Source of the DNA: Deltaproteobacteria bacterium
GTDB lineage: Bacteria; Myxococcota_A; Polyangia; JAAYKL01
Direction: 5' to 3'
NCBI GenBank assembly: GCA_016935665.1
Contig: JAFGQN010000062.1
Location: 1 to 33,174, forward strand
Length of the DNA stretch: 33,174 nt
Part shown: positions 1,039-25,601 of the stretch, piece after piece
Numbering within the stretch: the stretch's first letter is position 1
How the letters are laid out: every line of letters begins with the position of its first letter
Position numbers and translations under genes: made by a program
The notes under the pieces: generated by a model
The model's database searches: none
What the model was told of the DNA's origin: nothing
What the model saw: the letters and a program-made list of their open reading frames with translations, nothing else

Positions 1039-1344
1039 TTCTCCCACGCTGTTGAACATTTCTCGCAAAGATCTGGAACGTTCTCGCATCAGGTTTCATG
1101 CTTCTCACAGGGAACGACGGCTGTTCTCGCAGGGGGCGGCGGTCTTCTCACAGGGAACGACGGCTGTTCTCGCAGGGGGTGGCGGTCTTCTCACATGCCC
1201 CTGGGTTGTTCTCGCAGGGGGGCGGCGGTCTTCTCGCATGCCCCTGGGCAGTTCTCGCAAGGGGGCGGCGGTCTTCTCACATGCCCCTGGGTTGTTCTTG
1301 CAGGGGAATTGGGACTTCTCGCAGAGTGCAAGGGTGTTCCTGCA
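1039..1344. repeat. Phased array of about 15 TTCTCRCA boxes, 21/22-bp period
   Basis: Boxes matching TTCTCRCA start at 1039 (TTCTCCCA), 1060, 1081, 1102, 1124, 1145, 1167, 1188, 1209, 1231, 1252, 1274, 1295 (TTCTTGCA), 1316 and 1337 (TTCCTGCA). Steps are 21 or 22 bp only. From 1102 the boxes pair into a 43-bp higher-order unit: units at 1102 and 1145 are near identical, units at 1188, 1231 and 1274 share a different spacer (TGCCCCTGGG) after the first box, and nearly all share the GGGGGCGGCGGTC spacer after the second. Because 22-bp steps break the reading frame, the array as it stands cannot encode one continuous repeat protein on either strand. A 21.5-bp mean is two helical turns, so boxes lie on about the same DNA face. 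Function unknown. Confidence 0.9.
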
Positions 1345-1744
1345 GGAGCCCTGGGGCCTATCGCTGAACTGGCGGCGGCTGTCTCGTTTGGGGATGCGTC
1401 AGCGGATGTGCCGGCGGTGGGTTTGGCGGTGCGGTGGCGTCGCTGGTATTCGCTGGCGTAGCCAACCAATTTGGTAAATCGCAACGCTCGCCACCTGGAC
1501 TGCGCATGACGCGATGCCGCCAGTCGCACCAGAAATCCGTCCACCCGCGTCATATCAAGCCCCGCCTGTTGCAGCTCGGGCAGATCGTTCTGCATCCATT
1601 CATACAAATCCCCAGCATCCTGGTGATACGTCCCTCCCCATGGATAGGGGGCAGGGGAAATTTCGACACGATCAGTCGAATGGGGATTTTCACCCCGCTC
1701 ACCAGGAACTTTGTCGAAAGAAAGCTTTATGACTGGAAGTCTGC
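1191..1744 (-). pseudogene. Decayed hypothetical gene running into the TTCTCRCA array
   Basis: A minus-strand frame is open from just after a stop at about 1760 down to TGA at 1191-1193. Its middle part (about 1437-1660) reads like a real protein, with a tryptophan- and charge-rich segment around YEWMQNDLPELQQAGLDM and WRALRFTKLVGYASEYQRR. The last 70 residues become Ala/Pro/Thr-rich and then enter the box array (CEN and CEK tripeptides, since the box read backwards is TGYGAGAA). No ATG or good ribosome binding site opens the frame; only a TTG at 1607 is available, with no ribosome binding site seen. I do not recognise the family. The interpretation as a truncated gene end is inference; it could also be an unusual intact TTG-start gene of about 138 aa. 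Confidence 0.35.
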
Positions 1745-9437: not shown

Positions 9438-10007
9438 TCAGGGTTCGCTGTCCGGGAAGGCCGGAGTGCACTTTGCGGTGCTGTCATTCATCTCGCATTT
9501 AAAATCTATCGAGGCACAATCGAATATCGTATACCATGTATTGCCAGGAAGGCATGTCAGTATGGTTTCCTCCCGGCAAATGCTGTCACTTGTCTTGCAT
9601 GCGCTGGGGAGGGTGCTGGTGTCCATTGATGAGTCGGCGTCCTGGAAGGCCAGAACGCACATTGCAGCGTCGTCTTTCATCTGGCATTCAAAATCTATCG
9701 AGGCACAATTGAATATCGGAAACCATGCATTGCCAGGAAGGCATGTCAGTACACTTTCCTCACGGCAAGCACTATCACCTATCTTGCATTTGGTGGGCAA
9801 GCCGTTGGTGTCCGTTGATGAGGAGTTGCCATCGGTTGCCCCGGAATCGTCGTCGTGAGGAAATGCGGATTCCCGTATTTTGGAAAAATCTCCGTCACAT
9901 GCGGGGCTCGAAATCGCGGATACCAGTAATATGGCAAAACCGTTTATCACAAGCCATTTAATCGTTTTACTAAAATGGATTTCAATATGTCTGTTTGCGC
10001 GTTTCAT
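9438..10007 (-). CDS. Exported protein with two copies of a six-cysteine module
   Basis: A 189-aa protein with an N-terminal signal (hydrophobic core IKWLVINGFAILLVSAIS) ending near SSPAC; the Cys at 37 could be lipidated, although the lipobox is atypical. A Ser/Thr/Asp-rich linker follows (residues 40-70). Then come two tandem modules with a 63-residue period: Cys at 74, 81, 89, 101, 108, 117 and again at 137, 144, 152, 164, 171, 180, each containing CREE(S/T)(V/I)LTCLPGN and CASIDF. Six cysteines per copy suggest three disulfides outside the cytoplasm. The DNA repeats with a period of 189 bp. ATG at 10007 has a G-run 6 bases upstream. I do not know the family; similar Cys-rich modules occur in secreted proteins of Myxococcota. 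Confidence 0.8.
   Translation of the reverse strand: MKRANRHIEIHFSKTIKWLVINGFAILLVSAISSPACDGDFSKIRESAFPHDDDSGATDGNSSSTDTNGLPTKCKIGDSACREESVLTCLPGNAWFPIFNCASIDFECQMKDDAAMCVLAFQDADSSMDTSTLPSACKTSDSICREETILTCLPGNTWYTIFDCASIDFKCEMNDSTAKCTPAFPDSEP
9455..9789. repeat. Direct duplication, 189-bp period, encoding the two Cys modules
   Basis: Matching blocks include AAAATCTATCGAGGCACAAT at 9501 and 9690, and TTGCCAGGAAGGCATGTCAGT at about 9541 and 9730. The copies have diverged at many third positions and a few replacement sites, so the duplication is not recent. Confidence 0.75.
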
Positions 10008-24167: not shown

Positions 24168-25601
24168 ATGAGAGACTTACTATTAATGACGCTGATGGTA
24201 CTTGCATTAACGACCACGACTTCCTGCCAGCAGTCAACCGCTGATAAGGGTGATTCCGGTTCGGATGGGGATTCTGACTCAGACGGGGATTCCGACACGG
24301 ATGGGGATTCCGATTCAGATGGGGATTCTGATTCGGATGGGGACTCTGATTCGGATGGCGATTCCGATTCAGACGGCGATACCATGTCCTGGAAGTACGA
24401 TGGTGCCAGGCAGGGCAGTATTGGTTCGGTTTCGGTGGAATGTGACGAGGGCGACCTCGTTAAAGCCGATTGCGGTGCGAATTCTCCCAGCCCATGCGTA
24501 CCTGCGGCTGGAAAAATACTGTGCACGATGGTGATTAAGGACGGTGAGGGCGCCGAACAGTACAGCGGTCTGGTGGGTTTGGAGCAGTGGGGGCGCGGTA
24601 CGGGCAAGTACAACAAGCCCAACTACGAGTTTGAGATGCGTATCGAAAACGGCATTGACGAAAACCCCACGCCTCTTTTGGGAATGGGCAAAGAGGAAGA
24701 CTGGATTCTCGACGGCTCCTGGACGGATCGCACCTTCATGCGCCAGGATATTCTGTTCGATATTTTCAAAGAGCTGGGAGGCGCTACACACGTTGCAGCG
24801 GATAGCCGGTACGTCACCTTGAATTTTAATGGGGAGGCACGTGGAATATATCGTGTTTCTGAACGAATCAAGCGGGACGACGACCGCGTTGAAATGGAGC
24901 AGGATTCGGGCGTTGGCAAAAATTTCATTGTGAAGCTCGATGATGATGGGCTCATCAAGGATATTTCTATCGGTGCCGGGCAGGACGATTGGCAATGTGT
25001 TTATCCGTCAGAGGATAAAGCGACGGATAGTCAGCTGACTGGTATTCAGGTGTGGCTGGCGCATTTGGCAACGGAGATGGCAGAGAACGAACCTTTTGAC
25101 TGGCTCAACAAAGACAACGTTCTGGATTGGGTGTTGATGAATGAATTTGCTAAGAATATGCGTACTTACGAGAAAGGTTGGTATCTGTTTAAAATAGGGG
25201 ATGAAAAAGCCAATCTTATCCCATTTGATGCGGATATGTCTTTTGGGCAGCCAGACACCTCAGCCGAAGGTTGGGTGCCGCACAATGACCTGACTTCAAA
25301 TCTTCTTGTGGACAGTAGCTTTAAAAGCGCATTGGCTCCCCGCTGGAAACAGTTGCGGAGCGGTCCGCTGTCAGATTCGGCGTTGACACAACGTATCGAC
25401 GACTATCTCAAGGCGCTGCCCAGTGACGCCATTGAAGCGAATTTCGGCATGTGGCCCATGGCGGACCTGGATTTGAGCATCGTTGAAGAAGACTACAGCA
25501 CTCCGGAGGTGTCGGATTTTGATGCGGCAGTGGCCGATCTTCGCGCGTGGATTACCGCCCGAGTGGCCTGGATTGATGAAAATATTGCGTCGTATCAATA
25601 A
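24168..25601 (+). CDS. CotH-family lipoprotein (secreted kinase-like) with Asp-Ser-Gly linker
   Basis: A 477-aa protein with a short signal ending at TTTTSC (Cys20, likely lipidated though the lipobox is loose). Residues 29-70 are a (DSDSDG)n linker, then comes a CotH domain (about 110-470). CotH of spore-formers is an atypical protein kinase that phosphorylates spore-coat proteins. Matching features here are GLEQWGRGTGKYNKPNYEFEM, LLGMGKEEDWILDGSW, the RGIYRVSERIKRD segment and the acidic site IPFDADMSFG (Asp354, Asp356), corresponding to the DxDxxFG-type active site. ATG 24168 follows AAGGTGAC closely. A perfect TATAAT lies at 24099-24104 without a good -35. Attached to the outer membrane or surface by its lipid is inference; its targets are unknown. 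Confidence 0.85.
   Translation: MRDLLLMTLMVLALTTTTSCQQSTADKGDSGSDGDSDSDGDSDTDGDSDSDGDSDSDGDSDSDGDSDSDGDTMSWKYDGARQGSIGSVSVECDEGDLVKADCGANSPSPCVPAAGKILCTMVIKDGEGAEQYSGLVGLEQWGRGTGKYNKPNYEFEMRIENGIDENPTPLLGMGKEEDWILDGSWTDRTFMRQDILFDIFKELGGATHVAADSRYVTLNFNGEARGIYRVSERIKRDDDRVEMEQDSGVGKNFIVKLDDDGLIKDISIGAGQDDWQCVYPSEDKATDSQLTGIQVWLAHLATEMAENEPFDWLNKDNVLDWVLMNEFAKNMRTYEKGWYLFKIGDEKANLIPFDADMSFGQPDTSAEGWVPHNDLTSNLLVDSSFKSALAPRWKQLRSGPLSDSALTQRIDDYLKALPSDAIEANFGMWPMADLDLSIVEEDYSTPEVSDFDAAVADLRAWITARVAWIDENIASYQ
24252..24377 (+). repeat. Seven 18-bp tandem repeats encoding DSDSDG
   Basis: Seven units of 18 bp, each beginning GATTC or GACTC and ending GGATGGG or a close variant. Synonymous variation between units (Asp and Ser third positions) with constant protein sequence indicates selection for the acidic flexible linker. 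Confidence 0.9.

Follow-up and report, generated by a model that had tools for sequence, protein, structure and literature searches.

What is a run of evenly spaced 8-bp boxes doing beside a broken gene in a deltaproteobacterial genome? The window, by which we mean the whole stretch of 33,174 nucleotides analysed, is contig C117 of an 8.16-Mb genome in 249 contigs (G000), whose closest named relative is the deltaproteobacterial MAG ZodW_Metabat.4 (G002) of the same genus. The features that concern us are as follows.

1039 to 1344, minus strand: phased array of 15 boxes TGYGAGAA (TTCTCRCA on the plus strand) with a pitch of 21.29 bp, on the 3' side of a family gene remnant
1102 to 1306, minus strand: pair-duplicated part of the array with a 43-bp superunit, from TRF period 43 and the unit listing
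1374 to 1646, minus strand: family gene remnant adjoining the array, which begins just past it
1422 to 1463, minus strand: GYASEYQRRHRTAK, basic motif of the remnant's C-terminal tail, shared without change by the intact paralogue on contig C6
60 to 995, minus strand: Y1/REP-associated-type transposase-like gene beyond the array's far end, outside the recurrent unit

The initial annotation, made from the letters alone, had described about 15 TTCTCRCA boxes at steps of 21 or 22 bp, and the array is real. Boxes start at 1039, 1060, 1081, 1102, 1124, 1145, 1167, 1188, 1209, 1231, 1252, 1274, 1295, 1316, and 1337, with steps of 21, 21, 21, 22, 21, 22, 21, 21, 22, 21, 22, 21, 21, and 21 (mean 21.29 bp); 12 of the 15 are exact, those at 1039 and 1295 carry one mismatch, and that at 1337 carries two. 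The phased-chain score is 13.1, whereas 300 dinucleotide shuffles average 2.04 and never exceed 3.55, and the window contains 8 copies of TGCGAGAA, where 1.5 +/- 1.26 are expected. Column by column, identity is 13-15 of 15 within the box (10 of 15 at the R column) and 5-12 of 15 in the spacers; in units 1-5 the box is invariant save for R, with spacers identical in only 2-3 of 5, as expected from the earlier statement that the first units conserve box over spacer. The 43-bp superunit said to run from 1102 onward was recovered by TRF (period 43 at 1119-1306, 4.4 copies, 85% match), consistent with later spacers having been copied by duplication of pairs. We also agree that this is no CRISPR array (repeats of ~21-48 bp, unique spacers of similar length, and cas genes), since the boxes are only 8 bp long and the spacers are short (13-14 bp) and partly duplicated.

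Could the array be a decayed protein repeat with units of 7 residues? Some frames across it are open, and two arrays elsewhere in G000 with exact 21-bp steps, on contigs C233 and C80, are coding; those two were set aside. But steps of 20 and 22 bp break any frame, and the arrays lie outside genes. Given steps of 20, 21, and 22 bp outside reading frames, the intact open frame with strict 21-bp spacing that would mark a protein repeat was not found in any relative, and we reject this reading as almost certainly wrong.

Other features of the window are recorded here for completeness. The transposase-like gene at 60-995 scores 56.7 bits against NF047646, below the cut-off of 80, and its 3' end carries a 16-bp direct duplication, CGTCCCCCTTGTTCCC, at 63-95; a Y1/REP-type transposase was rejected as partner of the array because none recurs beside other arrays. 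A 189-bp tandem duplication at 9450-9822 doubles a cysteine-rich segment in the open frame 9438-10007 (minus strand), and in a 477-residue protein (24168-25601), 18-bp tandem repeats at 24252-24380 encode a linker rich in SDGDSD close to the start.

The search of the whole genome for boxes at 21-22 bp spacing that the initial annotation had proposed found such pairs at three loci only, C117 (the window), C6, and C95, and a reversed control pattern at the same spacings found none in G000. The C6 array is 3' of a family gene, the window array 3' of a remnant, and the C95 array is solo. The spacers of the three are unrelated to one another, so the box, not the unit, is the common element. The C6 array starts directly past the stop codon of a 262-residue family protein, and the solo C95 array, with the same box, has the same box inverted 30 bp before its first direct copy. 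In the window, the remnant consists of residues 38-96 (1467-1646) fused in frame to residues ~235-260 (1374-1466), having lost the N-terminus and the middle (~138 codons). The C6 protein and the remnant have identical tails and identical array boxes but are only 56% identical over the remainder. The window gene has decayed with its array intact, and the C6 protein could bind the window array in trans.

Linkage of gene and array extends well beyond this box. Arrays of 21/22 bp lie 3' of many family paralogues in G000, and the box differs by paralogue (for example CCAATAAC, GGGACGC, GCCAAAT, and CCGTTTC). When 7-mers that recur within 500 bp on the 3' side of 44 genes were pooled, the distances between copies peaked at 21, 42/43, 63/64, and 84/85 bp, a series absent from the 500 bp 5' of the same genes and from shuffles. 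A scan of species genomes, in which a subfamily A3 query gave nothing and an A4 query succeeded, yielded a second set of 80 loci, 71 of them outside the window's own group and mostly from Bacteroidota; 7-mer pairs 21 bp apart occur 3' in 52 of 71 loci versus 5' in 7 of 72, with harmonics to 126 bp. Of a third set of 15 loci, which includes a complete 8.0-Mb chromosome, 8 showed a clear array, on the 3' side in five and on the 5' side in three. Between roughly a quarter and a half of family genes lack any detectable array.

Conversely, we searched for 20-22 bp arrays ab initio in 1.40 Mb of G000 contigs, picked for family genes or the C95 array, and found 11: the two coding arrays mentioned above and 9 non-coding arrays, of which 8 adjoin a family gene or remnant (six 3', two 5') and the ninth is the solo C95 array. 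The two 5' arrays, C27:30339-30602 and C98:36693-36785, belong to a divergent subfamily and have a common GTATATG box; both consist of alternating GTATATG units in a 43-bp superunit. On the complete chromosome of G210, two arrays (L291 and L292) lie 5' of family genes with chain scores of 11.0 and 17.4, and a third copy (L290) has its array 3'. The expectation that arrays sit at the 3' end of a single gene family therefore holds for most arrays, but some occur 5' and one alone. When neighbor genes were clustered by BLAST, no family recurred across most loci, so that no conserved neighbor points to a purpose. At the level of sequence, these comparisons establish the pairing of gene and array in several phyla. 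The window array is apparently one member of a large, undescribed set of gene-linked arrays, each with its own box: we found no description of such a pairing in the open-access literature, a search whose coverage leaves out most subscription journals.

The linked gene encodes an all-helical, uncharacterized protein of ~230-260 residues with ~25 paralogues in G000. Family members also occur in Bacteroidota (including Aquimarina, Draconibacterium, Sunxiuqinia, and Marinilabilia), Aminicenantes, Acidobacteriota, and other Deltaproteobacteria, and in ~10% of the genomes in a sample spanning the window's phylum; the distribution is patchy and gene remnants are common. Purifying selection acts on the genes (dN/dS 0.04-0.23). 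No match above cut-off was found in Pfam, NCBIfam, PHROGs, or PADLOC, whose defense models matched 0 of nine family members tested, and no member was found among 72,556 plasmid records, 50,697 phage records, or the IMG/VR viral records searched; a defense, phage, or plasmid origin was rejected for want of matches in the respective databases. Bacteroidota members have a weak but recurrent similarity to NCBIfam NF052641 (the PQLLE family; E 2e-5 to 2e-2), with scores of 14-24 bits (best 24.1) that do not reach the cut-off of 80.

An AlphaFold model of a deltaproteobacterial member (252 residues, 73-sequence alignment, pLDDT 92) is entirely helical with no beta strand, and includes one 56-residue helix (58-113) and, at lower confidence, a C-terminal helix (230-250). 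The model shows none of the known DNA-binding folds, and no PDB entry is a conspicuous match: the best Foldseek E values are 0.07 (PDB) and 0.03 (BFVD), and the best VIA-align Z is 8.3 (talin R4), below the chance level for helical bundles. The S23/IVS four-helix protein 2rld aligns with Z 7.8 and rmsd 3.0 over 92 residues, values in a range common for helical bundles. The C-terminal tail carries a net charge of +5.9 over 28 residues, versus -1.5 for the rest of the protein. As an alpha-helix rises 1.5 Å per residue, the 56-residue helix would be ~84 Å long, and 21 bp of B-DNA measure ~71 Å; on these modeled dimensions, one elongated protomer per box is plausible.

Does the box follow the protein? 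Across 72 arrays, the more alike two proteins are, the more alike their boxes tend to be (rs 0.30, matched in 0 of 500 Mantel permutations), and the box is common to both arrays, in the same orientation, in 77% of pairs above 85% identity but in 2% of pairs at 35-45%. This covariation is partly phylogenetic, and column tests of protein against box are confounded by clade. Among independent nearest pairs, the residue after the tail's conserved Y ranks 1st, 3rd, and 4th of 128-161 columns; these ranks fail correction for multiple testing, residue 20 performs about equally, and a sliding-window correlation of protein with box does not single out the tail, so that the tail is likely, rather than proven, to be the reader of the box. 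Between related arrays, mismatches are fewer in boxes (118/747, 16%) than in spacers (290/1176, 25%; p = 3e-6).

These data bear on the proposal that the arrays are neutral satellites, repeats generated by slippage and carried along with a rapidly moving gene family, with no protein to bind them. Pair duplication over 43 bp in the window array and differences in array length between relatives are what slippage would produce, but it would hardly conserve boxes among spacers that are unrelated both within and between arrays, make the box follow the protein, hold inverted boxes in phase (see below), or arrive at the same pitch with many unrelated sequences. We regard this proposal as very improbable.

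One pair of loci bears on how protein and box might change together. L140 and L156 (G247:C65 and G247:C93) are two contigs of one metagenome-assembled genome and represent the same locus: i) the 24.1 kb upstream contain 19 mismatches, none of them within 10 kb of the gene; ii) the first 563 nt of the gene are identical, followed by 10 substitutions in ~110 nt; iii) from nt 682 on, the tail codons, the gene end, and the array are wholly different; and iv) the tail YFRNR is paired with the box CGCAGGA in one, and YHSK with CCGGGA in the other. The same pairings recur in distant relatives, CGCAGGA with YF tails in L104, L112, and L170, and CCGGG with YH tails in L117, L121, L137, and L146. Strain variation, a switch, or chimeric assembly of the metagenome may each account for the difference between L140 and L156. 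It is possible, and we propose it only tentatively, that the modules form a new class, present in several phyla, for addressing DNA, in which each paralogue (up to ~25 per cell) would use its short C-terminal tail to read a private box array next to its gene and recombination at the gene's 3' end would swap tail and array together; if so, protein and target would switch specificity in one step.

Joint replacement of tail and array in L140/L156 is also among the grounds for a different reading, in which the gene and array form a mobile cassette and the array is a recombination or transposition site where the protein assists a recombinase. The unit does behave as a moving or exchanged cassette would: near-identical Aquimarina units (~140 bp of 5' sequence, the gene, and a 200-260 bp array) lie in unrelated contexts, the distribution is patchy with many remnants, and family genes are often near contig ends. 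But the protein has no recombinase domain, the other end of the unit has no array, no bounding inverted repeats were found at the four loci tested, and the unit is absent from the phage, plasmid, and viral records searched, all of which makes an assisted recombination site unlikely.

In the search for inverted repeats bounding the Aquimarina unit, nothing was found except a dispersed 16-bp palindrome, AGACCTCACAGGTTTT/AAAACCTGTGAGGTCT, which lies upstream of the Aquimarina genes (L129, L131, L135, and L136) and is scattered through the same loci. About half of the family genes and fragments in G000 are within 1.5 kb of a contig end (C86, C121, C126, C185, C210, C160, C8, C201, C72, C233, C205, and C117), and some of these contig ends share a dispersed palindromic repeat of the GGGCGGTAGTTTATCTGCC type.

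Many arrays also contain boxes in the opposite orientation. A gene-proximal inverted box precedes the direct boxes in 31 of 70 arrays, where 1.1 would be expected, and inverted boxes often form a run of their own; in L108, for example, they start at 28, 48, 68, 88, and 109, with direct boxes from 118. Measured modulo 21, the inverted boxes stand 7-9 bp ahead of direct boxes (Rayleigh R 0.80 for 48 sites; R 0.83 and p = 1.5e-8 with one inverted box per array, p values that are optimistic because related loci are not fully independent). The sequences thereby place direct and inverted boxes in one helical phase.

The first inverted and direct boxes of the Aquimarina arrays pair into a strong hairpin (z -3.9 to -9.6) that leads into a T-rich stretch, and matching box changes are seen in both arms of its stem; this looks like a terminator ahead of most of the array. 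Together with the mostly 3' position of the arrays, the hairpin and its paired changes speak for an RNA-level element, in which the transcribed boxes would act as untranslated 3' hairpins or repeats recognized by the family protein, or as a terminator or regulatory RNA. However, a terminator-like hairpin would precede most of the array, arrays also occur 5' of genes, and a pitch of 20.8-21.1 bp with phase-locked inverted boxes fits B-DNA. Moreover, the proximal end of the window array folds no better than shuffles, and no Rfam family reaches its gathering score, the sole sub-threshold chance match lying outside the array. An element acting in RNA is, in our judgment, improbable.

Several known systems in which a protein binds an array of DNA repeats invite comparison. 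In Rep/iteron loci, as in ours, the units of the array measure about two helical turns each and lie beside a gene, there that of the binder. But here there is no match to a Rep or HTH family and no winged-helix Rep domain, the model being all-helical, and the genes are chromosomal, with many diverged paralogues per genome and no member in plasmid records. In type II plasmid partition, ParR forms a helical nucleoprotein complex on parC (PMC5016525), whose repeats measure 20 bp in pSK41, 11 bp in R1, and 17 bp in C. perfringens pCW3 (PMC9426499). ParR recognizes only its own direct-repeat array and falls into specificity families, much like the probable cognate pairing here. ParR, however, is a ribbon-helix-helix protein, whereas the present family is modeled as all-helical and has no Pfam or NCBIfam match; parC lies upstream of the parM operon, whereas our arrays are mostly 3'; and a motor ATPase is encoded beside parC, whereas no motor gene (ParM, ParA, or TubZ) recurs among our neighbors. 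The omega protein of pSM19035 binds short repeats in parS equivalently in both orientations and wraps the DNA in a helix (PMC5016525), but omega/parS has contiguous iterons, a ribbon-helix-helix protein, and a ParA partner, unlike 8-bp boxes at 21 bp without such a fold or partner. As defining folds and partner genes are absent where tested, the module belongs to none of these systems, although by analogy it may work like any of them.

Two other kinds of repeat also deserve mention. The BrickBuilt minisatellite MITE of Porphyromonas gingivalis consists of intergenic tandem 23-nt units in many copies (PMC4596501) and is similar in unit length, intergenic position, and occurrence in Bacteroidota; it differs in having spacerless units, one sequence family, a leader and tail with inverted ends, and, in its abstract, no linked gene family. 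The TAACTGA direct repeats of Beggiatoaceae and others resemble our boxes in being short and in recurring in different phyla, Bacteroidota among them (PMC4679880), but differ in being 7 bp long, of one sequence, and mostly located before start codons. The initial annotation had suggested a binding array for a cooperative protein, which fits the adjacency of the family gene, the general phasing, and the persistence of boxes where spacers diverge; none of its narrower guesses (a partition site, a replication iteron, or a nucleoid or transcription factor site) has been confirmed.

The explanation that we favor, and consider probable from linkage, helical phase, box-protein covariation, and purifying selection, is a cognate module: the product of each gene would bind the neighboring array in DNA form, with one protomer for every two helical turns, and so build a local filament. 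The array would be the cis-acting half of this two-part module and the adjacent gene for an all-helical protein the other half; each protein would read its own box in double-stranded DNA, mainly through the basic C-terminal tail; protomers would sit one per ~21 bp, all on one face of the helix, and would touch through their helical bodies to build the filament; and in many loci the filament would run both ways from a dyad beside the gene. As to purpose, we suggest only weakly that such a locus-specific nucleoprotein complex might help to maintain or isolate the gene-array cassette itself.

If this explanation is right, the window array would represent an abundant, unnamed protein-DNA pairing that spans four phyla or more, and its dozens of naturally diversified protein-box pairs could be used directly to work out a new recognition code. 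It would also provide a new route to nucleoprotein filaments built in phase, and a starting point for understanding one class of intergenic repeats in environmental genomes.
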